DNA of 64,000 bases from Ferruginibacter paludis (GTDB lineage Bacteria > Bacteroidota > Bacteroidia > Chitinophagales > Chitinophagaceae): the NCBI RefSeq assembly GCF_030409685.1, contig NZ_JAUFQJ010000002.1, positions 124,001-188,000 on the forward strand. Reading direction: 5' to 3'. This document shows positions 10,934-42,570 of this stretch, in pieces. A model generated the notes under the pieces. That model was not told where the DNA came from and searched no databases. It saw only the letters and a list, made by a program, of their open reading frames with translations. The stretch's first letter is position 1; each line of letters starts with the position of its first letter. The translations under genes and the position numbers were made by a program.

Positions 10934-12199
10934 TTAATCCGCAAATTGCAGATATACCAGCAAACCTGCCGCAATACTCATTATAATCAATGCTGCAAAG
11001 CCCAGTATATTGGTGGTGCGACCGTTTACATACTCGCCCATTATTTTTTTATTATTGGAAATGTGCAGGATGATGGCAATTAGAACGGGTGCTGTCAAAC
11101 CATAAAGAATAGCCGTATAAATCAATGCCTTTACCGGCGAAATACCCACATAATTCAATGAAAGCCCCAGCAGGAGGGAGATGGCAATGATGATATAAAA
11201 GCCTTTTGCTTCGTGAAATTTTTTATCCAATCCTTCTTCCCAGCCGAACGTTTCTGAAAAGATATAAGAAAGTGACCCACTTAAAACAGGAATGGCGATA
11301 AGGCCTGTGCCGATTACGCCTGCTGCAAAAAGCAGGTAGGCCAGATTACCTGCCAGCGGTTTTAAGGCCAGTGCTGCCTGCTCCACCGTGTCAATCTGGT
11401 GAACACCGGCTTTAAATAAAACAGTGCCGGTGGTAAGAATGATAAAATACATCACAAGCCCCGAAAATGTCATTCCAAAATCTACGTCTGTTTTTATTTC
11501 GTCAATCAGTTTCTTGTCTACTATCAGCCGGGCTTCCCGGTTCTTTGTTTCCTCCACTTCAACCGATGCCTGCCAGAAAAAAAGGTAAGGCGAGATCGTT
11601 GTACCAAGGATGCCCACCAAAATAGCTATAAAATTTTTATTAAATCGTATCGTGGGGATAAAAGTGGCTTTCAGAATAGCACCCAAATCCTGCTTATATA
11701 AAAATGGAACCACAAAATAAACCAGCATAACGATGCATAAATATTTGAGGATGGCTGCAATTCTGAGGTAGGGCAAATAAATAATCAAGCCCAGCAATAA
11801 CAGTGTAAAAAAAACGCTGAAGAAAGAAGCGTCAACAGCGGGAAATAACAAATTGCCAACGGCGCCCATGCCGGCGATATCAGCGCCAATGTTCATTACA
11901 ATAGCGGGAAAACTAAATAACAGCATCAGGTACAAAACAGGCCGGGGGTAATGTTTTTTGAGTGTTCCTGTTAAACCCAGTGACGTAACAATGCCTATTT
12001 TTGCACACATTTGCTGAATGGCCGCCATCAATGGAAAAGCAATAATTGAAGTCCACAGCGTTGAAAGTCCATACGCTGCGCCAGCCTGCGAATAGGTTGC
12101 TATGCCAGAAGGATCGTCATCACTGGCACCTGTTACAAGTCCTGGCCCCAGTAATTTCCAAAACTTTGATAACCGGTTCGTTTTTTTTATATGGGTCAT
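10934..12199 (-). CDS. Nramp-related divalent metal transporter
   Basis: 421-residue inner-membrane protein with about 11 hydrophobic segments of the Nramp (SLC11) fold. The start GPGLVTGASDDDPSGIATYSQ matches the TM1 region, but the metal-binding DPGN reads DPSG (29-32), and the TM6 motif, normally xMPHN, reads TISPY (201-205), so the metal-site Met and Asn are replaced. Such changes are found in Nramp-related proteins that do not carry the usual Mn2+/Fe2+ set, including Mg2+ transporters. The exact substrate is therefore uncertain. Single gene; a decayed gene lies upstream. Confidence 0.88.
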   Translation of the reverse strand: MTHIKKTNRLSKFWKLLGPGLVTGASDDDPSGIATYSQAGAAYGLSTLWTSIIAFPLMAAIQQMCAKIGIVTSLGLTGTLKKHYPRPVLYLMLLFSFPAIVMNIGADIAGMGAVGNLLFPAVDASFFSVFFTLLLLGLIIYLPYLRIAAILKYLCIVMLVYFVVPFLYKQDLGAILKATFIPTIRFNKNFIAILVGILGTTISPYLFFWQASVEVEETKNREARLIVDKKLIDEIKTDVDFGMTFSGLVMYFIILTTGTVLFKAGVHQIDTVEQAALALKPLAGNLAYLLFAAGVIGTGLIAIPVLSGSLSYIFSETFGWEEGLDKKFHEAKGFYIIIAISLLLGLSLNYVGISPVKALIYTAILYGLTAPVLIAIILHISNNKKIMGEYVNGRTTNILGFAALIIMSIAAGLLVYLQFAD

Positions 12200-28845: not shown

Positions 28846-29444
28846 CGCAATTACAGGATGAGGTTTCTAAGATAATAAAAATCGGAGAGAAGGAGTATAT
28901 GGCTGTTATTGTTTTTATATAGTCCTTAGATTGGTGTTTATTTTTTATTAACAAGTAACCTGTTGTGATTTTAAAATCCTGAAGGCCCACATGACCGAAC
29001 GGGCAGGGATGATATCATTTTGGGTTTGTACTAAGATACCGAGGGTGTAGTAACGGTGGGCTACAGGGCAGAGCCCTGCGCCAGATGGTAAACTCATCAG
29101 TCACAAAATTATTAACGTTCAAAGTATAGCAGTATAACCCTTCCCGGTGCAATCATCATTTATAGTAAACTAAATACACCAATTTATTTTTATCTAGCGA
29201 TTGGGCCTAAAAGGTGTCTCCTCTTATGCAAAAGCTTGTACTTGGGTGTTTTTTATTGCCTATCGTTTGCAAAAGGCACAAGAATTGCCAAGGCAAAATT
29301 AACTACACCAATACCCTATGCAAGAGGAACAAAATACCAATGGCGGCAAACGTGAACACGAACACCGACGAAATTGTACAATGTTTTATTATAAAAATTT
29401 TCATAAAACACATTTATTATCTTGCATGATAACTTTTCAAAATA
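28846..29444. other. gene-free left edge of the accessory region
   Basis: About 600 bp without a convincing gene. Contains a 6-bp-stem palindrome CAGGGC-AGA-GCCCTG at 29064-29078, whose first part (ACAGGGCAGAGCC) recurs near 32316-32328, and the repeat at 29210-29230. An AT-rich frame at 29214-29429 (71 residues, several Cys/Lys, no fold signs) is probably not a gene. GC content drops from here to about 34 kb. Confidence 0.5.
29210..29230 (+). repeat. dispersed repeat shared with 32169-32189
   Basis: 21 bases, AAAGGTGTCTCCTCTTATGC plus A, matching 20 of 21 at 32169-32189. The second copy is one arm of an inverted repeat at 32084-32184. Confidence 0.7.
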
Positions 29445-30194
29445 ATGGATATTCCAAAAGTATTTCTTTCATATTCTCATGACACGTTAGAACACAAGAA
29501 ATGGGTTCTGGAATTAGCGACAAGATTGAGAACAAACGGAATTGATGCAATATTAGATCAATGGGAACTTGGTGCTGGGAGTGATATCCCACACTATATG
29601 GAACAAAATTTAGCTAACGCCGATTATATAGTAATGGTTTGCACACGTAATTATGTAGAAAAGGCTAACATGGGTACGGGCGGAGTAGGGTATGAAAAGA
29701 TGATTATTACGGCTACATTAATGAGATCAATAAATGAAACAAAAGTCATTCCTATCGTGCGGCAGTCAGGCGAAAAAATGGTGCCAACCTTCTTAACGTC
29801 TAAAATGTATATAGATTTTTCAAAACAAGATGAGTTTGAGTTAGCTTATGATAATCTTATCCGAGCAATTCATAAATCGCCGCTTTTTATAAAACCACCT
29901 GTCGGCAATAATCCATTTGAGAGAATCGATGCTAAACCTCCAGAAGTTAAGCACGATCCAATTAAGAATATAATGGCATATTTCGCGATTGAGTACGAGA
30001 AAGAAAATGAACATTTATACTTCGATGATATTTTATCTAAGTTCCAAATATCCAGATTAATGCTGCAGCATATATTGACAGAGATGCAAAACCTAAACTT
30101 GATTTATTATCATACATCGTCTCGTTCGGCTAATTATTACAAACTAACTCAACTAGGAATCAAATATATAGTCGATAAGGGAATAATCAAATAG
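29445..30194 (+). CDS. SEFIR (TIR-like) domain protein with C-terminal winged helix
   Basis: 249 residues. Residues about 4-145 form a SEFIR domain: KVFLSYSHDTLEHKKWVLEL, GIDAILDQWELGAGSDIPHY, ADYIVMVCTRNYVEKAN and KVIPIVRQSG, a TIR-related fold used in signalling and, in bacteria, in defence proteins. The last about 75 residues (YFAIEYEKENEHLYFDDILS..., QHILTEMQNLNLIYYH...LTQLGIKYIVDKG) look like a winged helix. No transmembrane part. AT-rich compared with flanking chromosome. A role in phage defence is plausible by family but not shown. It is convergent to the membrane/HEPN pair, across an attC-like palindrome. Confidence 0.85.
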   Translation: MDIPKVFLSYSHDTLEHKKWVLELATRLRTNGIDAILDQWELGAGSDIPHYMEQNLANADYIVMVCTRNYVEKANMGTGGVGYEKMIITATLMRSINETKVIPIVRQSGEKMVPTFLTSKMYIDFSKQDEFELAYDNLIRAIHKSPLFIKPPVGNNPFERIDAKPPEVKHDPIKNIMAYFAIEYEKENEHLYFDDILSKFQISRLMLQHILTEMQNLNLIYYHTSSRSANYYKLTQLGIKYIVDKGIIK

Positions 30195-30235: not shown

Positions 30236-30333
30236 CTAACGAATGAAGGCTGGAAATGGCTTAACGAAAACACTACCGATTAGAAAAAGGACTGCGGATG
30301 TTCGTTTGCTGTGCCAGGTTGCGCCGGCGTTAG
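30236..30333 (-). repeat. attC-like imperfect palindrome
   Basis: On the minus strand this 98-nt element starts CTAACGCCGG, overlapping the stop codon of the gene at 30330-31061, and ends CGTTAG(AT). Nested complementary pairs are CTAACG/CGTTAG outermost, CTGG/CCAG next, and AACGAA/TTCGTT inside. The end GTTAGAT fits the integron core GTTRRRY. Size and form are those of integron attC sites, but no integrase gene is in the window. Confidence 0.5.
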
Positions 30334-31061
30334 TTTTCATCTTCATTTATTTTGTCAATTCGTTGTTTTATGAGTTTTTTTAATTCAACATACATATGAT
30401 GGACCTCCTTAAAAGCTTCTATTTTTTCTTTCCCGAATTCTTCTAAAATTTCCATTTGATCCTTATAAAGGTCTTGCTTTAACGTTAGTTGTTCTGGTAG
30501 TTGGGCTACCTTGAATTTAATATTATGTTGAATAAAAAGGTATTTTATTCTAAGTGCATAAGAATTGACAAGTGTTTCAAGCGCAACTGTTGCGATTGAT
30601 AAATTCTTAATGACCTCCAAGACCGGCTGATCATGCATAAACAAATGCAAACGGGATTGGGCCATATCAAGCTCATACTGTTTTTCATCAAATTTTTCTG
30701 AAACTGAGTCGAGTTTCTCATAATTGTCTTCAGAATATGTAGAAAAATTAAATCTCATTATCGAATATATCCAGCCGGAATATTTATCGTTAATTGAAAA
30801 TAATGCTTCTCTTTCGGCTGATTTGATACTGAATTTGTTTTGATTATTTAGGGCAAGTTGAGACTTTAAAAATTCGGTCTCCTTTACTAGATTAACTTTT
30901 ATACCTTCAACAATTTCAGTGATTTCGCCTATATCTTGTTTGGTGGCAAGATTTTTCCCCTTCTCCTCAAAATATTTTGGGTAGTAATTTTTAAAAACAA
31001 AAGCTAGAAATAACCCCGTTATAATGATAAAGAATTGCAAGATTAGGGATAGAATTTGCAT
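30330..31061 (-). CDS. membrane-anchored helical protein, partner of HEPN-like gene
   Basis: 243 residues starting MQILSLILQFFIIITGLFLA at 31061; a longer frame to 31148 overlaps the upstream gene and is less likely. One N-terminal membrane segment (about 4-24), then long amphipathic helices with heptads (KQDIGEITEIVEGIKVNLVK, LKKLIKQRIDKINEDEN). No family assigned. The start is 11 bp after the stop of the HEPN-like gene, so they are co-transcribed. A membrane protein paired with a HEPN-type RNase is a known layout in abortive-infection and toxin-antitoxin loci. The stop codon lies in an attC-like palindrome. Confidence 0.7.
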   Translation of the reverse strand: MQILSLILQFFIIITGLFLAFVFKNYYPKYFEEKGKNLATKQDIGEITEIVEGIKVNLVKETEFLKSQLALNNQNKFSIKSAEREALFSINDKYSGWIYSIMRFNFSTYSEDNYEKLDSVSEKFDEKQYELDMAQSRLHLFMHDQPVLEVIKNLSIATVALETLVNSYALRIKYLFIQHNIKFKVAQLPEQLTLKQDLYKDQMEILEEFGKEKIEAFKEVHHMYVELKKLIKQRIDKINEDEN

Positions 31062-31072
31062 CAGGCAGGCTT

Positions 31073-31765
31073 TTAGAAATGTGTAATTATAAATTCTTCT
31101 GTAAAACCAATAAGACTTTTCACATCTGCAGTATCTAATTTTGTCCACTCGGCGTGAAATGCCTTGTTCCTCAATTTAACAAAGGAAGTTAAAAGTGTAG
31201 CCTGAATACCTTTGATTAGCCCTATACTTTTTAGTGAGTTTACTATTTCTGACATGCTTTTGTCATCAGTTTCAAGGTTATTAGTTTTGGCAATTCTTTT
31301 AAGCGCATCCTCTAAAGCAGCACATCCCAAAACTGCGGCTGTGTCTTTTGCAGAGTTTTCAATGGCTTCCCTAGCCATTACTAATAAGTCTCCATAAACT
31401 TCTCCAGTTATTTCATTTTCGATTGAAGTTAAAATATCAAGCTCAATTTCTGATTTCAAAAAATCAAGTTTACCAATGCAAATTAAGAGCACGTCATCGT
31501 AGTCAGAATTTATTCTAGGATTGTAATAATCAGAAAGTTGTTTTCGAAAATTTTGGATATGTTCACTTGTTTGCCCATAAACTTTCGTCAATATAGAGAA
31601 AGTCAAGGAACATAATTCATCTACCTTACTGCTCGAAATAATTTGAGATTTTGGAGGTTTTGTTTTTGATAAAACCGATGTCCCGTCAGAATATGTCAAA
31701 CTATATGCAGCTTCCTTAATCATCTGAATAGTACTGAGTATTTTCTCTTTTGTAAGTTTACCCAT
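31073..31765 (-). CDS. HEPN-like protein (possible RNase)
   Basis: 230 residues, all-helical in appearance. The C-terminal about 100 residues (AREAIENSAKDTAAVLGCAA, then ATLLTSFVKLRNKAFHAEW) resemble HEPN/DUF4145 domains, and R199-N-K-A-F-H204 matches the Rx4-6H motif of HEPN ribonucleases. The N-terminal half is not recognised. Many HEPN proteins cut RNA in toxin-antitoxin, CRISPR and phage-defence systems. It is first in a two-gene operon with a membrane protein and is preceded by repeat A, which must contain its promoter. HEPN assignment is from motif and helix pattern only. Confidence 0.65.
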   Translation of the reverse strand: MGKLTKEKILSTIQMIKEAAYSLTYSDGTSVLSKTKPPKSQIISSSKVDELCSLTFSILTKVYGQTSEHIQNFRKQLSDYYNPRINSDYDDVLLICIGKLDFLKSEIELDILTSIENEITGEVYGDLLVMAREAIENSAKDTAAVLGCAALEDALKRIAKTNNLETDDKSMSEIVNSLKSIGLIKGIQATLLTSFVKLRNKAFHAEWTKLDTADVKSLIGFTEEFIITHF

Positions 31766-31798
31766 GTGATATTTCTTTTAGCTTTCTTTAAACCGCGT

Positions 31799-32075
31799 AT
31801 TTACACTAAATATACACCTCTTTCCATATAAAAAAAATTGCTACAAATTGACTTATAAATCATTGCGAACACTAATTGATAGTATTGGCATAGCACAAAT
31901 ACAAATTGCTCGCATAAAGAAAAAAAGTTCAAATAAATTTTAAAAATTAACAACCGAAAAGGAACTCCCCAAAGCTGCCGCTTTGCCCGAGCCATCATTT
32001 TTAGCTTTATAGTGCAAATACAACAAGCCAGAGCGTTGTGTTATACCAATGCCTCGTACAAAATTTCTACCGGGT
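31799..32075 (-). repeat. repeat A: copy of an intergenic segment plus the 3' end of the FAD oxidase gene
   Basis: Homologous over most of its length to repeat B (34006-34340) and, at its right end, to repeat C (39612-39700). Bases 32051-32075 are identical to 39662-39686, inside the FAD/Fe-S oxidase gene. On the minus strand 32041-32075 reads PVEILYEALV and a stop, against PVEILYEALI and a stop in the intact gene, with synonymous differences. The left end (ATTTACACTAAATATACACC) abuts the HEPN-like gene. Confidence 0.8.
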
Positions 32076-32083
32076 ACCTCCGC

Positions 32084-32184
32084 AAGAGGTGACACCTTTC
32101 GTAGGCCCTTTCATGCTGAAAGCAATAACAGTTCTCGCAGGCGCATTCAATTTGGCAGACACTTTCAAAAAGGTGTCACCTCTT
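32084..32184. repeat. perfect 16-bp inverted repeat pair
   Basis: AAGAGGTGACACCTTT at 32084-32099 and its exact complement AAAGGTGTCACCTCTT at 32169-32184, 69 bp apart. Each arm has an inner palindrome GGTG(T/A)CACC. The 29210-29230 repeat is a third copy of the arm. Confidence 0.75.
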
Positions 32185-32363
32185 ATGCAGGATTGTTTAA
32201 TTAGCCGGCAAGATTTGCAAATGGCCGGTTACCAAATTTTTTCCTGCGATGATTCGCAACGGTTGTTATTTTTTGCTTTGCTTTAATTTAGCGAAAGAGC
32301 AGTAACGAATTGCAACAGGGCAGAGCCTTCCGCAAGAGGGTGGCAATAGTTCTATTACGTCGT

Positions 32364-32987
32364 CTACCGTAATTCACTTTCAATGTATCGTTGGATGATT
32401 AGCGAAAACCCTTTGTCAAGCCAAAAGTCCGAACATATCATTCCCCTAGACATGCCAATGGTCTCATATTTTTCTACGTGAATAAATTTACCTTTTTGCG
32501 GAGGTTCGCCAACCAAATTTTTAAATAGTTTATGCAATAACTTTTCTAACTCATTTGCTGTTGTGGGAATATTTGCTGATTCCGTTTTTTGTTTCATATC
32601 TCTCCACAAATGAGGGTCGCCACGAAGCCCCCATTGAATCGGCTCAGGGTCGAAATATCTAGCTACAAAATTATCCGCAGTGTCAAATAGTTTGAAATTA
32701 TCAGATAGAGTATTGTATACGTCTAATAAAACTAAAGAATCTGATTCAGTAGAATTTTTCAAGGATTTAGGAAAAATGGAAATGCCAGTATAGGTGTTAT
32801 AGCGCAAAGTAAGTTCTCTCGCCTTGTAGGTAAAATCCCAATAATGTGATTCTGTGTCACTAAGTTTATTACTAAAAAAAATACCTAAGGTTGTTTTAAG
32901 AATCTCAGCAATTTTATAAAACTTATCTATTGAACATTTTGAATCTATGACTGCTTCCGTCCAACCTTGACTGTGGTCTATTTTCAT
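32364..32987 (-). CDS. hypothetical two-part protein (possible immunity-like)
   Basis: 207 residues, no signal or TM. The N-terminal part (about 1-105; SHYWDFTYKARELTLRYNTYTGISIFPKSL) resembles small alpha/beta DUF3630-type proteins; the C-terminal part (about 130-207; GKFIHVEKYETIGMSRGMIC, then SDFWLDKGFSLIIQRY) resembles another small domain seen in bacterial accessory proteins. The two seem joined. Similar proteins occur as immunity or orphan cassette genes, but no function is known and my family match is from memory of motifs. AT-rich. Confidence 0.6.
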   Translation of the reverse strand: MKIDHSQGWTEAVIDSKCSIDKFYKIAEILKTTLGIFFSNKLSDTESHYWDFTYKARELTLRYNTYTGISIFPKSLKNSTESDSLVLLDVYNTLSDNFKLFDTADNFVARYFDPEPIQWGLRGDPHLWRDMKQKTESANIPTTANELEKLLHKLFKNLVGEPPQKGKFIHVEKYETIGMSRGMICSDFWLDKGFSLIIQRYIESELR

Positions 32988-33189
32988 TTTGGAAAGTTGG
33001 GGTCTTTAAATTACTACCAACGTTCGAGGCTATGTACAGTCTGCGAATTGACCAAATACCCACCCTGAACTGAAGCTAAATTTATAACTAAAAGCCGAAG
33101 TTCAGAACTACTGCCCGGCAGATTTGCCTCCGCCGAATATGAAGCTTGGATATGCACTACCGATGATTGTTTCAACGTCATACCCAGAT

Positions 33190-34006
33190 TGCACAAAACC
33201 TGTTAGTGGCAGCTTTGGTCACGAGCTTCAATTTTATAAACTGCATCGTCGATAACCATTCTCAAAAAACTGTCTCTTGTTTTTTTATACGCTTCTTTTA
33301 AAATGGGAATTGATTTTAATGTCCCAACTGTTGAGAGTGGTCCACAAATCATTCCTTTCATGTGTGTGCTGGTAATTTTGAATTCGTCTAGCAATATGTC
33401 TTCCACGTCTGGGTCATTTGTGTTTGATAGTGCTTTGATTGCCGCATGGCTCTCGTCATGCGTTCCCTCCTTAACAAGTATTTTGATTGGTTCAATGTTA
33501 TAGCTTGAATCTTTTATTACATTTCTAAGTCTCGATAAAATGGAAACCTTTACACTTTCATCGTCTTCCTGTTGAACTTTTTCAACCAGATAATTAAAAA
33601 GGTCTTTGTCATTCGTATTAGAGCAAATACTTGAAAGGCAACAATAAATATATTTTTTGAAGGCAGTGTATTTCTCGTTTGCAAGCAATTCCAACAGCTC
33701 TTTTTTGTTTTCTTGAGAATTCAGTTTATCCGACTGCCGATATGCATACCATGATACACTGTCTTCGCTGCTATAACTCATGTCGGTTTTTCGTCTCTCC
33801 AAAATTAGCTCGGAATATTCGTCATTGCTTGCCATTTTAGATATTAAAAACTCCATTCCATTTTTCTCCAAATCAGAAATGAGCTGTTGCCGGGCGATTG
33901 CTAATTTTTCCGCTAATGTCAGCGGTTTACTGTCCTGCTTATTTTCTTTGCGCCTAAATATGTTGAACATAGAAGTGTGTCAATAAAGTTGCCACTAACC
34001 TGTGCA
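33190..34006. repeat. inverted repeats bracketing the HEAT gene (attC-end-like)
   Basis: Left copy 33190-33210 reads TGCACA, AAACCT, GTTAGTGGC; right copy 33991-34006 is the complement of TGCACAGGTTAGTGGC. On the minus strand the gene is thus preceded by GTTAGTG and its stop codon lies in CACTAAC, the relation between R' and R'' boxes of integron cassettes. I could not find a well-matched distal end of the site below 33190. Confidence 0.5.
33203..33970 (-). CDS. HEAT-repeat protein
   Basis: 255-residue soluble helical protein. After a basic start (MFNIFRRKENKQDSKP) there are HEAT-like helical pairs, for example DESVKVSILSRLRNVIKDSS, DESHAAIKALSNTNDPDVED and KSIPILKEAYKKTRDSFLRM. HEAT repeats form binding scaffolds; no catalytic site is visible. 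It is flanked by inverted repeats of cassette-end type, with its stop codon inside one of them, and repeat B lies directly upstream and must hold its promoter. Confidence 0.7.
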   Translation of the reverse strand: MFNIFRRKENKQDSKPLTLAEKLAIARQQLISDLEKNGMEFLISKMASNDEYSELILERRKTDMSYSSEDSVSWYAYRQSDKLNSQENKKELLELLANEKYTAFKKYIYCCLSSICSNTNDKDLFNYLVEKVQQEDDESVKVSILSRLRNVIKDSSYNIEPIKILVKEGTHDESHAAIKALSNTNDPDVEDILLDEFKITSTHMKGMICGPLSTVGTLKSIPILKEAYKKTRDSFLRMVIDDAVYKIEARDQSCH

Positions 34007-34340
34007 TTTACGCTAAATATACGCTACTTTATATTTAAAATAATTTGCCACAAATTTTTTTAAGCTCATTACACAAAGTAACTTGTAATGTTTAGAGTAG
34101 CACAAATACAACTTAATGATTAATAATAAAGCGGAAAATTTTCAGATAACCATAAGAAACCAACAACCGAAAAGGCGCTCCCAAAAGATATAAAAGCACA
34201 AGAGGGCGACGCAACGATGTACCACAATGCTGCTGCTTCGCCCGGACCATAATTTTTACTCATGCAGTGCAAATACAACAAGCCGGAACGTTGTGTTATA
34301 CCAATGATTCCTAAAAATTGCAGCCGGGTGTTGGCGTGTA
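34006..34340 (-). repeat. repeat B: second copy of the segment carrying the FAD oxidase 3' end
   Basis: Aligns with repeat A through TTTA(C/G)(A/G)CTAAATATAC at one end, AACAACCGAAAAGG in the middle, and GCAAATACAACAAGCC then GTTGTGTTATACCAATG near the other end. Beyond that it matches the FAD oxidase gene tail (CCGGGTG, GGCGTGTAC), here with substitutions and indels, so the coding end is decayed. It contains the 34199-34219 motif, absent from repeat A, as a local insertion. Confidence 0.75.
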
Positions 34341-34437
34341 CTACTATCTCTGCAGGGGTTGCCAACCTTCGCAAAATTACCGGGTGGGGGCTTCATTGTC
34401 CTGCACAGCCAGGGCCAGGCGCTTGCTGGTTGCCCAT

Positions 34438-35661: not shown

Positions 35662-36684
35662 TCAACATCCACCCTTGCCGGGTATGATGGCATAGATCAC
35701 GTTGCCTGAAACAAATAAATTGAAGACCTTACCGTCTACTGAAGGAAGTAATAATTTCCATGTTTTTCCCTTGTCTGATGATTTGAAAATGCCATCACGA
35801 TGAGTACAAACTAAGTTTTCACCAACCTGGAAAATATAAGGCATGAAGGCTTTCAAAGTTGGGTGATCATTCCAGGTGCGTCCTATTGAATCAATAACAA
35901 CTTTGTTGCCTGCATTATTGGGCTGCCAGGTTTTACCGCCATCATAGGATGTTTTTATCCCCCTGGGATTCGAGGCTGAAGTAGAAATCATAGCAGCGAA
36001 TCCACCGTTGATCTGTTTTACATCCCAAACCTCACTGCTATCACTGATCACCGGCGCCCAGTTTTCACCATTATTGGTCGATCTTATTATCTTTCTCCAA
36101 TTGGTTGCCAGCAGTATGCCATCCGCCTCTGCCATATGCCCCACCAGCGTTCCTGCATACACCTGTTTCCAGGTTGCTCCATTGTTATCGGTTTTAAAAA
36201 AGCCTTTTTGTGTGCCGATGAAAATGGTACCTCCGGCAGTTTCAAAAGCGCTGCGTACTACCGGTATTTGAAAAGTGTCGAATACCGGCGACCATACACT
36301 CGTTCCGTTTGTTTTTTTCACATTGACGGTCCAGTACTTGCAGGCAACTATACCGGACTTATCGGGGGCAATGCTGGTAGCTTCGCCGTGTAAAATTTCT
36401 TTGGTCCAAAACGGAGCGGTGGCATTTGGTGTACTGAGATAGAATCCGTTTCCAACCTTTAGAAACAGCCCTTTATCATTTAGAAAGAAGCTATTTCCCC
36501 GGATACTATCTTTCTGCAAATTTTCCGGCAGCCCTTTACTGATGTCCTGCCATGATTGTCCGCCGTCTGTAGATTTGAAAACAATGCTTGTTTTCTCGTC
36601 CGCTTCTTTTTGTTTTAGTACAAAAGAATTTACCAGGAATAATACCAGCAGTATGGCCGGCACAAACACAAATAATCTTTTCAT
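35662..36684 (-). CDS. exported BNR/Asp-box propeller protein (paralogue 2)
   Basis: 340 residues starting MKRLFVFVPAILLVLFLVNS at 36684 (signal anchor/peptide). Five Asp boxes: KSTDGGQSWQDI, KTDNNGATWKQV, RSTNNGENWAPV, TSYDGGKTWQPN, KSSDKGKTWKLL. Clearly paralogous to the gene just upstream (shared FKS(T/A)DGGQSWQDISKGLPEN). Function unknown; in Bacteroidota such proteins are secreted or surface-bound. The 25-bp gap to the upstream paralogue indicates one transcript. Confidence 0.82.
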   Translation of the reverse strand: MKRLFVFVPAILLVLFLVNSFVLKQKEADEKTSIVFKSTDGGQSWQDISKGLPENLQKDSIRGNSFFLNDKGLFLKVGNGFYLSTPNATAPFWTKEILHGEATSIAPDKSGIVACKYWTVNVKKTNGTSVWSPVFDTFQIPVVRSAFETAGGTIFIGTQKGFFKTDNNGATWKQVYAGTLVGHMAEADGILLATNWRKIIRSTNNGENWAPVISDSSEVWDVKQINGGFAAMISTSASNPRGIKTSYDGGKTWQPNNAGNKVVIDSIGRTWNDHPTLKAFMPYIFQVGENLVCTHRDGIFKSSDKGKTWKLLLPSVDGKVFNLFVSGNVIYAIIPGKGGC

Positions 36685-36709
36685 TTTTTTAATTGAGCGT
36701 AAAAGATTT

Positions 36710-37774
36710 TTAACAATGTGACTCCGTCTGTATACCATAAATCACGTTGCCGGAGACAGATAAAATAAACATCTTCCCTTTATCAGCAGGAAGCACCAGT
36801 TTCCATGTTTTTCCCTTGTTGGAGGATTTGTAAATGCCGTCAGTATGACCACAAAAGAAGTTTTCACCCACCTGGATAATGGAAGTTTTGTACTCTGGCG
36901 CCGGAGGGTCGGCTTCTTTAGCATGCCAGGCTGAGTCAGTGCCTTGTGCCGGATTGCCGATATTAGTGAACGACCACGGTGAGTCGATAATAGCTTGCCC
37001 CGGGAATCCAGCATCAATGGGCTGCCAGGTTTTACCGCCGTCATAGGACGTTCGTATTCTCCGGGTCTTTGCGGCGGTACTGTAGGTAATGGCAGCGAAT
37101 CCACCCTGGATGCGGGCTACATCAATGCCCACGCCACCCTCGCTGATCACCACCGACCAGTGTTCACCATTATCGGTTGATCGTATGATCCCGCTCATGC
37201 TGGTGGCCACTAATACACCGCTTGATTCTACCATTTTAATTACCCAGCCTCCGGCATGCACCTGTTTCCAGGTTTTTCCATTGTCAGTAGATTTATAAAG
37301 GCCGTTGTCGGAGCCTATGAAAATAGCGCCTCCGGCAGTTTCAAAAACCGTGCGTATATTCCCTTGAAAATTTGTGTACACAGGTGACCATACACTTGTT
37401 CCGCTTATTTTTTGTACAATCTGCCCCCAGTAATTATACGCAAACATCCCGTTTTTACCAGGGGCAATGCTGCTCCAGTTATCAGGGAAAATCTCTTTTT
37501 GCCAGAAAGGAGTGGTGGAATTTGGGTTACTATGATAGGTGCCTTTCCCGGCACGTAACCAAAGCCCGCTTTCATTTGCAAAGAAACCACTTTGGGCTGA
37601 ATTTTCAGGTAGCCCCTTGCTGATATCCTGCCATGATTGTCCGCCATCTGCAGATTTAAAAACGATGTTTGCAGTTGCAGCCTTATCTGTTTTTTGTATT
37701 GGCTGATCGTCCGGGATTGGAAATACAAAAGGAAATTGAAAAAGGAGTAAAAAAGCAAGGCTATAAATTTTCAT
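36710..37774 (-). CDS. exported BNR/Asp-box propeller protein (paralogue 1)
   Basis: 354 residues starting MKIYSLAFLLLFQFPFVFPI at 37774 (signal peptide); an in-frame ATG two codons earlier is possible, the longer frame to 37933 overlaps the divergent regulator and is rejected. Five Asp boxes (KSADGGQSWQDI, KSTDNGKTWKQV, RSTDNGEHWSVV, TSYDGGKTWQPI, KSSNKGKTWKLV). First gene of a two-paralogue operon and divergent from a membrane-anchored winged-helix regulator (146 bp apart), which may control it. Confidence 0.82.
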   Translation of the reverse strand: MKIYSLAFLLLFQFPFVFPIPDDQPIQKTDKAATANIVFKSADGGQSWQDISKGLPENSAQSGFFANESGLWLRAGKGTYHSNPNSTTPFWQKEIFPDNWSSIAPGKNGMFAYNYWGQIVQKISGTSVWSPVYTNFQGNIRTVFETAGGAIFIGSDNGLYKSTDNGKTWKQVHAGGWVIKMVESSGVLVATSMSGIIRSTDNGEHWSVVISEGGVGIDVARIQGGFAAITYSTAAKTRRIRTSYDGGKTWQPIDAGFPGQAIIDSPWSFTNIGNPAQGTDSAWHAKEADPPAPEYKTSIIQVGENFFCGHTDGIYKSSNKGKTWKLVLPADKGKMFILSVSGNVIYGIQTESHC

Positions 37775-37920
37775 GACCATAATTGATTGGGTGAAACAAT
37801 AAAGTAAAGCTACCGGTTGGCAATTAGCCTGCAGCTTTTTAATAGTAAAAACTTGTAAAGGATGTGTAAAACGTTTGTAAAACCACGTAAAAACTGCGGT
37901 GTATAGAGTAATTTGCACAC

Positions 37921-38805
37921 ATGAAGAAGTCATTTATGCTGGTCGGGTCATCCGTGATGGTAATTGCTGTTTTGATTGCTGCTGTTGCATTTAGCAATCA
38001 GAAAAATGACATTCCCGCAAATCACCTGGAAGTGGTATTACGTGATATCGGGCACGAGTTGTTGCTTTCAGCTAAAGATTCTTCCTCCCGGGTGCTGCCG
38101 GTTAAGAAAATAAATGAACACACTTACCAAATTTCCTTTCAAAATGAGGTTGGTTTTATTTCAGATTCGCTCATCAATTTGGTTCAGCGAACGTTTCAAA
38201 AAAATGCGCTGGCAAAAGACTATATAGTGAATCTGAGGAATTGTAAACAAAATGAAACGGTTTTTGCATTCGAAATAAATAGCCATACCGGCGATTTAAC
38301 TCCCTGCAGGGGTCGTACACTGGAGGTTGGTTGTTATGTTATTGAAATTGATTTGTTGAAAAAAGAGCAGTTTAATTTCTTTTGGTTGTTGCTGTTGATC
38401 CCTTTGAGTGTTCTTGGTTTTTATGTGAACAATACCTTTCGGAAAAAAGTAGAAAAGGAAGAGAACGAAGATAAAGATGAGCAAGAATCAATATCCGGTA
38501 ACAATGATTATATACCATTAGGAAGCTTTCAATTTTACACAGCTGATCATGTGCTTAAAAGGGAGCATACAACTATTCCGCTTTCGGAAAAAGAAACAAA
38601 AGCACTAAAAATATTTGCAGAAAATGTAAATCAAATTGTAGCAAGGGAAAAGCTGATGAAAGAAATCTGGGAAGATGAAGGCATCGTAGTAATCAGTAGA
38701 AATGTGGATGTACTGGTATCTAAATTACGCAAGAAATTAAGCGACGATAACTCCCTTAAATTTATTAACGTACATGGTAAGGGGTACAAGTTTATTATTG
38801 AGTAG
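37921..38805 (+). CDS. membrane-anchored OmpR-type winged-helix regulator
   Basis: 294 residues. N-terminal hydrophobic segment (about 7-24), a 125-residue external domain with three cysteines (C108, C129, C138), a second membrane segment (about 151-171), a charged linker, and a C-terminal Trans_reg_C winged helix (about 200-294; LSEKETKALKIFAENVNQIV, RNVDVLVSKLRKKLSDD, NVHGKGYKF). The DNA-binding domain is C-terminal and cytoplasmic, so the order is reversed relative to ToxR/CadC. There is no receiver or kinase. It may sense an envelope signal and control the divergent BNR genes. Confidence 0.88.
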   Translation: MKKSFMLVGSSVMVIAVLIAAVAFSNQKNDIPANHLEVVLRDIGHELLLSAKDSSSRVLPVKKINEHTYQISFQNEVGFISDSLINLVQRTFQKNALAKDYIVNLRNCKQNETVFAFEINSHTGDLTPCRGRTLEVGCYVIEIDLLKKEQFNFFWLLLLIPLSVLGFYVNNTFRKKVEKEENEDKDEQESISGNNDYIPLGSFQFYTADHVLKREHTTIPLSEKETKALKIFAENVNQIVAREKLMKEIWEDEGIVVISRNVDVLVSKLRKKLSDDNSLKFINVHGKGYKFIIE

Positions 38806-38830
38806 ATGCCAGGCAAAAAGCGGGTAAAGC

Positions 38831-38938
38831 GTATAACAAATCAGGCGTATGATTCATTCTTTGTCAACTGTTATGATTGGTTGTCTACTGACCCGAATTA
38901 TCATTGCCCAGCCCTGCTTCTGCCAATTCATGTTAGCG
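38831..38938 (-). repeat. attC-like imperfect palindrome after the ParDE pair
   Basis: On the minus strand, just after the toxin stop, the sequence CCGCTAACATG begins a stretch of about 108 nt that ends CCTGATTTGTTATACGC. TAACA/TGTTA form the outer pair and GGC/GCC an inner pair. The end box GTTATAC departs from the GTTRRRY core at one position. Weaker than the element at 30236-30333. Confidence 0.35.
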
Positions 38939-38944
38939 GTGGTT

Positions 38945-39244
38945 TTACTGTTGTATCCTGTGTTTAAGATCCATTCTGCCATGTAAAATCCTGACTATTT
39001 CAATTTTGGCAGCACTAAGCTTTCTGTAGAATAATACATGTTGTCCGGCTATGAATCCAAATATTTCAATATCAATTTCAGGATAATTTTTGCCTCTCAC
39101 TGTACCGTCTGCCAACTCCTGGCAAGACTCTAAAAGCATGAAGTAATATTTATCAGCTTGCCTTTCTGACCAGGTATCTACAGTATATTCCCATATTGCA
39201 GATAAGTCCTGGACTGCTTTGTTTGAAAGTATGTAACTAGCCAT
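38945..39244 (-). CDS. parE: RelE/ParE family toxin
   Basis: 99-residue type II toxin of the ParE group: SNKAVQDLSAIWEYTVDTWS near the N-terminus and the C-terminal KIEIVRILHGRMDLKHRI strand/helix, both typical. ParE toxins usually poison DNA gyrase; some relatives cut mRNA on the ribosome. Its ATG overlaps the antitoxin stop by 8 bp (ATGGCTAG), so the two are translationally coupled. Confidence 0.92.
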   Translation of the reverse strand: MASYILSNKAVQDLSAIWEYTVDTWSERQADKYYFMLLESCQELADGTVRGKNYPEIDIEIFGFIAGQHVLFYRKLSAAKIEIVRILHGRMDLKHRIQQ

Positions 39245-39488
39245 TTTTTCTTCTGGCAGCTTTTAATTTTTCAAGATGCTTTTTGGGGTCAAAGTTTTTG
39301 GCTACGCCACTTTCAATACCCTCTTCTATGGCTTTTTTGAGAGCGACTATTTTAGATTCTTCTTCTTCAAGCAATCGAAGCCCTGCCCTGATCACTTCAC
39401 TGGCATTCTTAAATCTTCCTGTTGAAACTTTATCGTCAACGAAATCCTCAAAGTGATTTCCTAATGAAATGGATGTATTACGTCCCAT
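39237..39488 (-). CDS. parD: ParD-type antitoxin
   Basis: 83-residue antitoxin starting MGRNTSISLGNHFEDFVDDK at 39488 (the longer frame to 39533 adds 15 residues with no family support). An N-terminal ribbon-helix-helix (about 3-48, with ASEVIRAGLRLLEEEE) binds DNA; the C-terminal helix (KKAIEEGIESGVAKNFDPKK) wraps the toxin. It neutralises the ParE product and represses the pair. Confidence 0.92.
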   Translation of the reverse strand: MGRNTSISLGNHFEDFVDDKVSTGRFKNASEVIRAGLRLLEEEESKIVALKKAIEEGIESGVAKNFDPKKHLEKLKAARRKNG

Positions 39489-39611
39489 TGGCTGAAATTT
39501 GAATAAAGTTACCAATTTTTGGTAATTTTTCAAATTTTGTCAACCGACCGGATAGACTCATTCGTGCGATCATCAATATGCACCAATGCTACCCCCTTGC
39601 CGCACCAACAT

Positions 39612-39700
39612 TTATTTTAAAAATGCAAATACAACAATCCGGAATGTTGTATTAGATCAGCGCCTCGTACAAAATTTCTACCGGGTGTTTGGCGTGTACC
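39612..39700 (-). repeat. repeat C: native copy at the 3' end of the FAD oxidase gene
   Basis: Runs from AT-rich DNA downstream of the gene through GCAAATACAACAATCCGGAA into the last about 16 codons of the FAD/Fe-S oxidase. Repeats A and B share this order. Since HPVEILYEAL is a conserved C-terminus of the oxidase family, copy C is the source and A and B the derived copies. Confidence 0.8.
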
Positions 39701-42570
39701 TGGGTGCCGTCTTTTATCTGGTGGCGGCAGCTGGTGCCGGGAGCGGCTACAATAACGCTGTCGGATTTTTTATTGCGTACAGCCGGGAATAATACCAACT
39801 CGCCAATCTGCATAGACAAATCGTAATGTTCTTTTTCGTACCCGAAACTACCAGCCATACCGCAGCAACCGCTGGGGATAGTTTGTACGGTGTAATTTTT
39901 TGGCAGTGATAGCATGTCGGCAGAGTAACTAACGGATGACAATGATTTTTGCTGGCAATGGCCATGCAGCAGAATCTGTTTTTCATCAGTAGTAAACTGG
40001 TCTGCGGAAATGTGGCCTCTTTTTATTTCAGCGGCAATAAATTCGTCGATGATAAAAACGTTTTTACTTAGTTTTTTCGCGGCTTCCAGCAGGTCATCAT
40101 TTGCCAGGTCAATGTATTCATCCCTGAAAGTAAGGATGGCGCTGGGCTCAACGCCAAGCAGTGGCGTTGTGTCATTGATAACATCTTTTAACGCCACAAT
40201 ATTTTTATTCACAATTTCTTTTGCCTTCCTGATTAACCCCTTGCTGAGCCAGGTTCTGCCACTCTCCAGGTGTTGGGGGATAATAACGTTGTACCCCAAT
40301 TTTTCCAGCAACAGGATTGCTTTTATACCAATTGAGGTATCGTTATAATTAGTAAACTCATCACAAAACAAATAAACAGTCCTACCTCCATCTCCGGAAG
40401 AGGTGTTGCGGCGCTTCCTTTGCCAGTTTTGTAACGTGGTTGTGTACATCAATGGCATGGACCTTTTAACTGCAAACCCACTTAATTTTTTAATGAGGTT
40501 GCTGATGGGTTTGTTGGTCATGGCAAAATTGTACAGTCCCGGTACCAGCGCACCCAGTTGGGCCGACTTTGTAAAGTTGGCAATGAGCTTACTTCGGAAA
40601 GGCACACCGTTGGTGTCGTAATACTGCTGTAAAAATTCTGCTTTTAGTTTGGCTACGTCCACATTGCTGGGGCACTCCGATTTACAGGCTTTGCAACTGA
40701 GGCAAAGATCCATCACTTCATAAATTTCTTTATGGTTAAACCGGTTTACTTTGGTGGAGTTGGTTAAAAACTCCCGCAATATATTGGCCCGGGCACGGGT
40801 AGTATCTTTTTCGTTCCGCGTAGCCATAAACGAAGGGCACATGCTGCCGCCGCTTAAATGGGTTTTACGGCAATCGCCGCTGCCATTGCATTGTTCGGCG
40901 TGTTGCAATACATCCTGGTTGTGGTAGCGAAAGATGGTATTGAACTTGGGTGTTTGCTGCCCCGGTGTGTAGCGCAGCATGCTGTTCATGGGCGGGGTAT
41001 CTACAATTTTATTGGGGTTAAAAATATGCTGCGGGTCCCAGGTGTTTTTTACCTGCTTTAACAACTGGTAATTTTTAGGCCCCACCATCTGTTCAATAAA
41101 CTCACCTCTTAAACGGCCATCGCCATGTTCGCCGCTTAAGGAGCCATCGTATTTTTTTACGAGCGTGGCAATTTCCTGTGCAATGGATTTAAACAGGTGG
41201 TTGCCTTCTTCGGTTTTTAAATTGATGATAGGGCGCAAATGTATTTCGCCTGAACCGGCATGCGCATAATGCACGGCATGCAAATCGTACTTCACCAATA
41301 TTTCGTTGAACTCCCGGATATAAGCGGGCAGGTCTTCTACATCAACTGCGGTGTCTTCAATCACCGGAACGGCTTTTTCATCACCGGGTAAATTGCCGAG
41401 CAATCCTAAGCCCGCTTTGCGCAGCGTCCATATTTTTTTGGTGTCGTTGCCAAACAGCAAGGGGAAATGATAACCGAGTCCGGCCGCACGCATATCGGCT
41501 TCTACTTTATTGCAGATGTCGGTTATTTCTTCGCGGGTATTTTTTACAAACTCCACCACCAGAATAGCACCGGGATCGCCCTGTACAAAAAAGCGGTTTT
41601 TGCTTTGTTCAATATTGTCTTTGGTACATTCTAAAATATAATGATCTATCAGCTCGCTGGCGCTGGGCTTGTATTTGAGCGCAATTAAATTGGCCCGCAA
41701 ACTTTCATCAATGCTGTTAAAATGTACACAAAGCAGCCCCGTTTCTTTGGGTGGCAGCGGTACAACATTCAGTTTTATTTCGGTGAGAAAAGCCAGCGTA
41801 CCTTCAGACCCGGCGATGAGATCACAAAAATTAAAATCGGGCATGCCGGCGACGAAGGGCGATTTTTCCAGCAGCAGATCAATGGCGTAACCGGTGTTGC
41901 GGCGCTCGACTGATTTTTTGGGAAACTGTTTTCTTATTTCCTGCTGGTTATCGTAATTGCTTAATATGCCGCGGATATTATTATAGATTTTTCCTTCCAA
42001 TGTATTGAGTTCGCATTTGGCATGGAAGTCATCATTGCTCAGCGTTTTAAATTCAGCTTCTGTGCCATCACTTAAAATGGCTTTTACTTCCAGCAAATGT
42101 TCTCTTGTGCTGCGGTATACCACCGAGTTGCTGCCGCAGGAATTGTTGCCCACCATACCGCCGATCATGGCCCGGTTGGCGGTGGAAGTTTCGGGGCCAA
42201 AGAATAAGCCGTAGGGTTTTAAAAACATGTTTAGTTCATCACGGATTACGCCGGGTTGCACCCGTACCCAGTTTTCTTTTGTATTGAGTTCAAGAATTTG
42301 TGTGAAATTTTTCGACACATCTGCAATGATGCCGTTGCCCACTACCTGGCCGGCAAGCGAAGTGCCGGCCGTACGTGGAATGATGGACGTATGATTATTG
42401 TGTGCAAACTGAATAAGCTTTTTAATATCGTCTGTAGTTTTGGGAATGGCAACTGCCAGCGGCATTTCGCGGTAAGCTGAAGCGTCCGTGGCGTACAATA
42501 TCCGCATGGTATCATCTGTAAAAAAATCTCCTTCCAGCAATCCGGCCAGTTCCTGTAGTTTTTCCTTCAT
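39652..42570 (-). CDS. FAD-linked oxidase / Fe-S fusion protein (D-lactate or glycolate dehydrogenase-like)
   Basis: 972 residues fusing a GlcD-like flavoprotein and a GlpC/GlcF-like Fe-S protein. Order: FAD_binding_4 (about 30-180, PRTAGTSLAGQVVG, GPETSTANRAMIGGMVGNNS), FAD-oxidase C-terminal domain (about 210-480, including HAVHYAHAGSGEIHLRP), a ferredoxin-type cluster region (CNGSGDCRKTHL and CLSCKACKSECPSNVDVAK), then two CCG-like parts (GHCQQKSL and SGCCGMAGSFGYE). It oxidises a 2-hydroxy acid, probably D-lactate or a relative, and passes electrons to quinone. Soluble but probably membrane-associated. Its 3' end is the source of repeats A and B. Confidence 0.93.
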   Translation of the reverse strand: MKEKLQELAGLLEGDFFTDDTMRILYATDASAYREMPLAVAIPKTTDDIKKLIQFAHNNHTSIIPRTAGTSLAGQVVGNGIIADVSKNFTQILELNTKENWVRVQPGVIRDELNMFLKPYGLFFGPETSTANRAMIGGMVGNNSCGSNSVVYRSTREHLLEVKAILSDGTEAEFKTLSNDDFHAKCELNTLEGKIYNNIRGILSNYDNQQEIRKQFPKKSVERRNTGYAIDLLLEKSPFVAGMPDFNFCDLIAGSEGTLAFLTEIKLNVVPLPPKETGLLCVHFNSIDESLRANLIALKYKPSASELIDHYILECTKDNIEQSKNRFFVQGDPGAILVVEFVKNTREEITDICNKVEADMRAAGLGYHFPLLFGNDTKKIWTLRKAGLGLLGNLPGDEKAVPVIEDTAVDVEDLPAYIREFNEILVKYDLHAVHYAHAGSGEIHLRPIINLKTEEGNHLFKSIAQEIATLVKKYDGSLSGEHGDGRLRGEFIEQMVGPKNYQLLKQVKNTWDPQHIFNPNKIVDTPPMNSMLRYTPGQQTPKFNTIFRYHNQDVLQHAEQCNGSGDCRKTHLSGGSMCPSFMATRNEKDTTRARANILREFLTNSTKVNRFNHKEIYEVMDLCLSCKACKSECPSNVDVAKLKAEFLQQYYDTNGVPFRSKLIANFTKSAQLGALVPGLYNFAMTNKPISNLIKKLSGFAVKRSMPLMYTTTLQNWQRKRRNTSSGDGGRTVYLFCDEFTNYNDTSIGIKAILLLEKLGYNVIIPQHLESGRTWLSKGLIRKAKEIVNKNIVALKDVINDTTPLLGVEPSAILTFRDEYIDLANDDLLEAAKKLSKNVFIIDEFIAAEIKRGHISADQFTTDEKQILLHGHCQQKSLSSVSYSADMLSLPKNYTVQTIPSGCCGMAGSFGYEKEHYDLSMQIGELVLFPAVRNKKSDSVIVAAPGTSCRHQIKDGTQVHAKHPVEILYEALI

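Follow-up and report, generated by a model that had tools for sequence, protein, structure and literature searches.

We analysed a 64 000-nucleotide (nt) stretch of the genome of Ferruginibacter paludis, here called the window (G000:C10:124001-188000, where G000 is the window's own genome, a 6.9-Mb draft in 34 contigs). We conclude, with a probability of about 0.88, that the window contains a gene cassette, a unit carrying a HEAT-repeat gene, which belongs to an integron-like system with a dedicated tyrosine recombinase, an attI-like junction and hairpin sites. The anatomy of the cassettes, the covariation and boundaries of their sites, their linkage to the recombinase, their orientation and the exchange of sequence at or near the trinucleotide GTT are direct observations and are described below.

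The probable HEAT-gene cassette

The accessory genes of the window cluster at ~29.4-34.0 kb; the coordinates of all features are reported in table 1. As the preliminary description of this DNA had claimed, an inverted repeat flanks the HEAT gene, whose stop codon lies inside CACTAAC. Read on the minus strand, the start, GTTAGTGGCAACTTT, agrees at 14 of 15 positions with the reverse complement of the end, GTTAGTGGCAGCTTT. The two ends of the cassette are complementary, with the A/G difference at position 8 that characterizes the family; this cassette belongs to neither of the sets (40 or 157 cassettes) in which end complementarity is counted below.

The cassette-like nature of the unit was borne out. 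The site reaches 125.5 bits (E 4e-28) with the site model R1, of which it is itself one of the 42 training rows. A DNA search with a 251-nt stretch holding the site, carried out ahead of any model, gave matches in 21 of the 298 order genomes (own genome included, E<=1e-3). The matches span 16 of 140 genera and two families, are at least 185 nt long in eight genomes besides its own, and include a second copy of the element in its own genome, on contig C2.

The HEAT site is ~3 nt shorter after AAC than most of its relatives and its arms are partly mispaired; it looks slightly decayed and is perhaps therefore weakened. Its arm score is 27-29, compared with 32-44 for the sites of the array on contig C19 of the same genome (one of the five sites has only 32 on one strand, the others 36-44), and the arm-score scanner alone does not separate it from a 60 kb Markov background (maximum 32). 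Folding as single-stranded DNA had been proposed as a check, and the pieces 33150-33240 and 33960-34020 alone fold no better than shuffles (z 0.99 and 0.16), because they hold only part of the site.

A homologue of the HEAT gene, 80% identical, was found in one other genome of 149 (G117). The DNA homology corresponds to window positions 33992-33201 and then ends, that is, the cassette is present without its site, and R1 detects no site there. The homologue is preceded by a stretch weakly resembling a recombinase C terminus (31-32 amino acids, 35-41% identity, E 9e-4 to 4e-3).

Only one significant R1 site lies within the window, and the open reading frames (ORFs) of the window that were read included no such recombinase. 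The window holds one sound putative cassette, far from the recombinase. The array without a visible integrase that had been suggested for the window holds as regards the integrase; the recombinase and an array of five sites are found elsewhere, on C19.

The recombinase and its arrays

On C19, a recombinase ORF of 407 amino acids (C19:25823-27046) and an attI-like junction are followed by five sites of 188, 189, 188, 190 and 186 nt in the same direction. There is one main gene before each site, with its stop codon overlapping AAC or at most 30 nt before it. Similar arrays are present in eight further genomes (G237, G190, G176, G210, G016, G172, G076 and G267). The F. paludis genome has at least 17 site matches, on C19, C34, C1, C2 and C10; no recombinase was found in the stretches read around the clusters on C34 and C1. 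Of ten cassette proteins of this genome tested, eight have no Pfam match, and the others match SMI1/SUKH and a metallopeptidase.

Fourteen recombinases of the family align with a mean column identity of 58%, and the residues R, K, HxxR, H and Y, which we take to be those of the catalytic core, are invariant. In three recombinases compared with Pfam, a SAM-like domain and Phage_integrase are recognized and ~100 N-terminal residues are left unassigned; in the AlphaFold model of a Terrimonas relative (mean predicted local distance difference test score 86.8) this part consists of strands and helices. The same three proteins stay below the cut-offs of the listed NCBIfam families, including IntI, XerC, XerD and XerA-like, and their scores for TIGR02249 (IntI) are 162-183 bits for a cut-off of 265. 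The best matches by sequence in the PDB are XerA (4a8e; 174 and 172 bits) and then IntI4 (157 bits). Foldseek of the recombinase model places IntI4 (2a3v) first (E 1.6e-14) and XerA next (2.8e-14). Residues 183-243 of IntI4 (61 residues) stand opposite 21 positions of the recombinase profile. A quick tree sets the family apart from XerA, XerC and XerD, with IntI4 joining on a long branch in an unsure place; it includes a few recombinase relatives from other phyla.

The preliminary description had called for a genome search for an integrase of integron type. None of 18 genomes searched has a protein over the TIGR02249 cut-off, so the recombinase was rejected as an integron integrase; a tyrosine recombinase of another kind is present, that of C19, and three of these genomes (G176, G210 and G237) have sub-threshold tyrosine recombinases close to copies of the element. 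By its sequence, the recombinase is not an IntI: it lacks the IntI insertion, carries an extra N-terminal domain and stays below the IntI cut-off.

Sites and recombinase are linked. The relatives of the recombinase were collected from 84,980 species, each represented by one genome, and the best 80 loci contain 101 R1 sites (E<=0.01) in 38 loci. Of these sites, 88 lie downstream of the recombinase and on its strand, 12 upstream of it on the opposite strand, one upstream on the same strand and none downstream on the opposite strand; 100 of the 101 point away from the recombinase. The layout is tandem in 28 of the 38 loci and divergent in nine, and one has matches on both sides. The divergent loci, with sites upstream on the opposite strand, are L143, L147, L148, L152, L155, L158, L161, L164 and L165.

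Co-occurrence was analysed in an order sample of 149 genomes, of which 50 have sites at E<=0.01 and 46 at E<=1e-5 (the rows were copied by hand). At the stricter threshold, sites are present in 14 of the 17 genomes with a recombinase of at least 400 bits versus 32 of the 132 others (p 5e-6). With a wider recombinase threshold (~240 bits, 69 genomes) the co-occurrence is weak (28/69 vs 18/80, p 0.02). In a sample of the phylum, 52 of 395 Bacteroidota genomes have sites at E<=1e-5, probably a lower bound because at most six candidates were scored per genome. The predicted system is common in Bacteroidota. There are 144 plasmid records matching the recombinase at E<=1e-40, all below 60% identity and only one covering 80%, and two phage records at E<=1e-30.

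The site family

The sites are bounded by AAC and GTT and are mostly 124-190 nt long. Among 229 collected sites, 209 start with AAC and finish with GTT. The 229-site set comprises 65 of 87 R1 matches of a first scan, 82 of 91 of a further scan, and 82 of the 87 recombinase-locus matches (of the 101) that reach 30 bits; it omits matches near ends, partial or weak matches, the window site and two identical-cassette rows of locus L070. Of the 209 sites, 136 are 185-194 nt long, 56 are 120-129, 11 are 155-159 and six have other lengths. The length classes (~124, 157 and 188 nt; L066, L098, L099, L104 and others) are ~32 nt apart, as if an inner module were repeated. The R boxes rarely follow the attC consensus: GTTRRRY occurs in 13 and RYYYAAC, the consensus of the second R box of attC, in 17 of the 209. 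The sites are not canonical attC sites.

The stem was established from 42 sites in an alignment of 203 columns. It has 13 pairs, all of which show two-sided compensatory changes. Pairing is found in 95.5% of cells versus 61.0% after shuffling (32-42% for slid structures), and covariation is 0.778 versus 0.196. A further 134 matches, 132 of them distinct, from loci outside the training set, aligned to the model, give 96.6% versus 61.8% and 0.714 versus 0.165. As possible counterparts of the extrahelical bases that set strand polarity in attC, the sites show a conserved mismatch at position 8 and, in the inner stem, 1x1 loops, but no clear bulges.

Complementary cassette ends

The 4 nt that follow the GTT upstream of a cassette are complementary to those that precede AAC in the cassette's own site. 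This was observed in 37 of 40 cassettes from seven arrays, compared with a mean of 2.4 and a maximum of 10 in 10,000 shuffles; the end of a cassette matches the start of the next one in only 2 of 33 cases. The 40 cassettes derive from 47 boundary points, including the attI junction of the F. paludis array, and omit two G237 and two G176:C7 sites whose ends were not placed. The three misses are a cassette spanning an unlisted site (L070 11813-12001), a misplaced end (L080 13735, which R1 sets 4 nt further on) and a difference at one of the four positions.

In the larger set, 138 of 157 cassettes, counted as neighbouring pairs among all 229 sites, have ends complementary at four of four positions (5,000 shuffles: mean 7.9, maximum 21). 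Of these 138 cassettes, 137 have position 8 unpaired, and A stands on the start side in 202 of the 209 sites; positions 7, 9 and 10 are paired in 104, 113 and 120 of the 138.

Natural exchange at or close to GTT

Two pairs of loci are conserved up to or just past GTT and then differ. The F. paludis locus (G000:C19) and G016:C13 are 95% identical in an alignment of 1,540 columns that begins ahead of the recombinase and takes in ACATGTT; it ends 8 nt past this motif, with different cassettes beyond, of which only the sites are alike. Contigs C1 and C3 of G176 are 97.6% identical across the recombinase and attI, and diverge immediately behind TAAGTGTT. This is the arrangement expected of an attI beside the recombinase gene, at which new cassettes would enter.

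Whole cassettes are also found in two contexts. A 693-nt stretch of L178 follows attI in one place and another site in a second (100% identity); a 1,224-nt stretch of G172 follows an attI-like copy in one place and a site in the other (99.7%); a 475-nt stretch of G190 is present twice in one array (100%). The edges of these stretches lie at most 3 nt from GTT; only the right edge of the G172 stretch is further off, 13 nt beyond GTT. The copies border immediately on other cassettes or on attI, with little but GTT in common at their edges. Near-copies also occur in L137: two pairs (93% and 96%) stop 2-4 nt away from the cassette boundaries, and a third (88.6%) extends ~190 nt into the preceding site. 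A second attI-like copy in G172 (L097, reverse strand ~11720-11830) is much like the one beside the recombinase and has a cassette behind it.

Other features of the window

Table 1. Features of the window discussed in the text.
Feature	Position	Strand	Remarks
SEFIR/TIR gene	29445-30194	plus	Beside minus-strand accessory genes; over Pfam cut-off; PADLOC bSEFIR E 2e-79
Palindrome, 98 nt	30236-30333		Not a member of the site family
Two-gene accessory unit	30330-31765	minus	243 amino acids without Pfam match; 230 amino acids with weak HEPN-like matches below cut-off
Repeat copy 1	31789-32110	minus	Layout as copy 2; ends in GTGTATATTTAGTGTAAATACGCG followed by GTTT, before two-gene unit 31765-30330
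HEAT-gene cassette	33021-33998	minus	Starts with the TT that follows the upstream G and ends with the G in the GTT of its own site
attC-like site of the HEAT cassette, 186 nt	33019-33204	minus	Directly 3' of the HEAT gene; model R1
Cassette gene, 255 amino acids, HEAT_2 repeats	33203-33970	minus	Pfam PF13646, E 1.2e-6, 29.1 bits (cut-off 27.7)
Repeat copy 2	33996-34341	minus	Copy of the 3' end of the FAD-linked-oxidase-like gene, then attI-resembling end (GTAGCGTATATTTAG...CACAG followed by GTT), directly before the HEAT cassette
Possible decayed 5' half-site	38828-38934	minus	Right behind toxin-antitoxin-like pair 38945-39533; R1 11.0 bits, E 0.81 (not significant alone)
Repeat copy 3	39583-39699	minus	3' end of the FAD-linked-oxidase-like gene itself (39652-42570) and the sequence behind it

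The palindrome at 30236-30333, which is present in the sequence and contains the stop codon of an accessory gene, had been taken for an attC-like site. It was ruled out as a recombination site: given in three ways, its single-stranded DNA fold equals that of shuffles (z 0.30, 0.74 and -0.47), R1 has no match there at E<=1, and relatives occur in one of 298 order genomes, namely its own. The start and end of its unit, compared by eye, differ. Of the places proposed for an attC model, the HEAT site (a training row of R1) was recognized and the palindrome was not. The two-gene unit is without an R1 match and its status as a cassette is unsupported. The accessory genes had been described as all on the minus strand; the SEFIR/TIR gene is on the plus strand.

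A direct repeat of ~100 nt, missed by the preliminary description, has three copies in the genome (31967-32075, 34222-34329 and 39583-39686). It carries the 3' end (..VEILYEAL.*) of the gene 39652-42570, which we take to be FAD-linked-oxidase-like, with a short inverted repeat behind. In a genus search, the repeat was found in six of 93 genomes, with long matches only in G000 and G016. The backbone is shared with this related genome, in which other genes occupy both places and the accessory genes left of the repeat differ; the G016 stretches matching the window locus (L016 and L017) have other accessory genes and no R1 match at E<=1.

Likewise overlooked was the sequence CCGCTAACATGAATTGGCAGAAGCAGGGCTGG at 38828-38934, which by eye resembles the 5' halves of the sites; the neighbouring pair 38945-39533 is presumably a ParDE-like toxin-antitoxin system. 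The short sequence AAAGGTGTCACCTCTTATGCA has inverted and direct copies near accessory genes (32077-32191 and 29209-29230), and the adjoining stretch 32072-32110 matches twice in genome G351. Two adjacent paralogues, presumably BNR-like, lie at 35662-37933 (69% DNA identity over 689 alignment columns).

Rfam gives no match in the window at gathering scores and ARAGORN no gene. Of five window genes compared with Pfam, the SEFIR/TIR and HEAT genes are over the cut-offs and the others have no match or one below; PADLOC recognizes only the SEFIR gene among the five, and NCBIfam gives nothing over cut-off for the window genes.

Proposed mechanism and alternatives

The recombinase (here C19:25823-27046) would cut between the G and the TT of GTT, both at the attI-like junction beside its own gene and at the hairpin sites of mostly 124-190 nt that terminate each cassette. 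Cassettes would be excised as circles, and the circles inserted gene by gene, in one orientation, behind attI. Ends of the form GTT NNNN GY ... RC N'N'N'N' AAC would restore a fully paired site only in the circle, and the conserved mismatch in the end stem probably marks the strand or polarity. From these features we infer a circular intermediate, a single-stranded substrate and an active recombinase. The window cassette sits far from the recombinase, at an attI-like or promoter-like end behind the copied 3' end of a gene, and is perhaps now fixed.

Several points weigh against this interpretation. Recombination itself is deduced from sequence comparison. The window site is atypical, and the likeness of the end of repeat copy 2 to attI was judged by eye, against the genome's own attI. 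The number of pair types in the 42 sites is not clearly above that of shuffles (44 of 500 reach it); in the second set, pair types (106 of 500) and pairs with two-sided changes (210 of 500) are within the shuffles. In the larger set, 19 of 157 cassettes do not have ends matching at four of four positions, and the site lists behind the 40- and 157-cassette counts are subsets copied by hand. In the order sample, 32 of 132 genomes without a recombinase of at least 400 bits carry sites and 3 of 17 with one carry none. Finally, 42 of the 80 best recombinase loci have no R1 match. Of these, 20 end within 2 kb behind the recombinase and ten have 10 kb on both sides, five of the ten being outside Bacteroidota. 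Relatives without R1 sites occur in Bacillota, Atribacterota, Nitrospirota and Myxococcota (L172, L175, L179, L181, L184, L185, L187 and L188, some with short flanks); these relatives may use other sites.

A true integron, with IntI and attC sites of divergent sequence and a stray cassette in the window, would share the whole logic of integrase, attI, hairpin sites, exchange between G and TT, and cassettes. IntI4 (2a3v) is moreover the best Foldseek match and stands beside the family in the quick tree, on a long branch, and the accessible part of PMC8138268 states that the IntI insertion is incompletely conserved even in an integron-like subgroup. We nevertheless consider a true integron improbable: no genome of 18 is over the IntI cut-off, the three recombinases score 162-183 bits instead of 265, 21 profile positions face 61 residues of IntI4, an extra N-terminal part is present, and the R-box motifs are found in only 13 (GTTRRRY) and 17 (RYYYAAC) of 209 sites.

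Two further explanations dispense with cassettes, and we give very little credence to either. The repeats are dispersed, form hairpins and occur also far from a recombinase (C34, C1 and the window), as non-autonomous transposons or repetitive extragenic palindromic (REP)-like hairpins lying by chance behind accessory genes would; such elements would hardly be oriented away from the recombinase 100 times in 101, form whole units of gene and site with complementary ends, or be exchanged at or near GTT. RNA elements of accessory operons, either terminators or regulatory RNA, would account for hairpins that come after stop codons and covary, and the lack of an Rfam match in the window leaves room for an unlisted RNA; end complementarity, linkage to the recombinase and identical cassettes with edges at or near GTT would remain unexplained.

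Comparison with known systems

The recombinase shares the fold and catalytic core of XerA, XerC and XerD, XerA (4a8e, 174 bits) being its best PDB match by sequence, and differs in forming a separate clade in the quick tree. The pdif (Xer-dif) modules use 28-bp dif-type sites, and the system was rejected as such a module since 203 of the 209 sites are 120-129, 155-159 or 185-194 nt long; dif motifs themselves were not searched. Miniature inverted-repeat transposable elements (MITEs) and other transposons with terminal inverted repeats are defined by terminal repeats with target-site duplication; this class was rejected because identical copies directly abut other cassettes or attI and share little at their edges beyond GTT.

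With integrons, including sedentary chromosomal ones and attC clusters lacking an integrase, the system has in common a tyrosine recombinase gene, an adjacent attI, head-to-tail cassettes in one orientation, a hairpin site behind the gene, the GTT exchange point, complementary cassette ends and clusters near which no recombinase was found (C34 and C1). It differs by the ~100 additional N-terminal amino acids of the recombinase, by the length classes of its sites, whose R boxes are rarely GTTRRRY, and by the conserved mismatch in the end stem. Of the features of a canonical integron, folding through paired inner (L) boxes, in the form of the 13-pair covarying stem, attI and a one-orientation cassette array are present, whereas an IntI-family integrase with its extra domain and GTTRRRY/RYYYAAC R boxes are not. 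The system works like an integron, yet by these two criteria it is outside the canonical family, with a reservation for the variability of the insertion noted in the part of PMC8138268 available to us; the same part reports the insertion to be essential for integron function.

A cluster of attC sites lacking an integron integrase (CALIN) is defined, in the accessible part of PMC9024848, as at least two attC sites without a nearby integrase; the window, with one significant site only, was rejected as a CALIN. In the integrons of Treponema, as far as the consulted part of PMC3607928 describes them, recombinase and cassettes run in one direction, an arrangement shared by 28 of the 38 loci here; those integrons are described with intI, and here nine of 38 loci are divergent and one has sites on both sides.

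Integrons have been reported as rare in Bacteroidota; the consulted part of PMC9024848 mentions for Bacteroidetes only In0 at earlier times and then one complete integron, in Salinibacter ruber M1; that of PMC8618304 lists Bacteroidota among the phyla with integrons. No description of the present system was found in the open-licence literature, including the accessible parts of PMC9024848, PMC8618304, PMC8138268, PMC7370490 and PMC3607928. It is apparently undescribed so far, and an account outside that literature is possible.

In all probability the system represents a second integron lineage, that is, a widespread capture of cassettes in Bacteroidota by a tyrosine recombinase other than IntI, with tandem and divergent layouts, cassette ends that pair with each other but not with those of neighbouring cassettes, and arrays of ten cassettes and above. 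Should the system be active, cassettes would be captured at folded sites by a recombinase that lacks the IntI insertion, and the origin of integron function would become testable. Activity would also provide a new target for integron finders and open a large pool of unread accessory genes.

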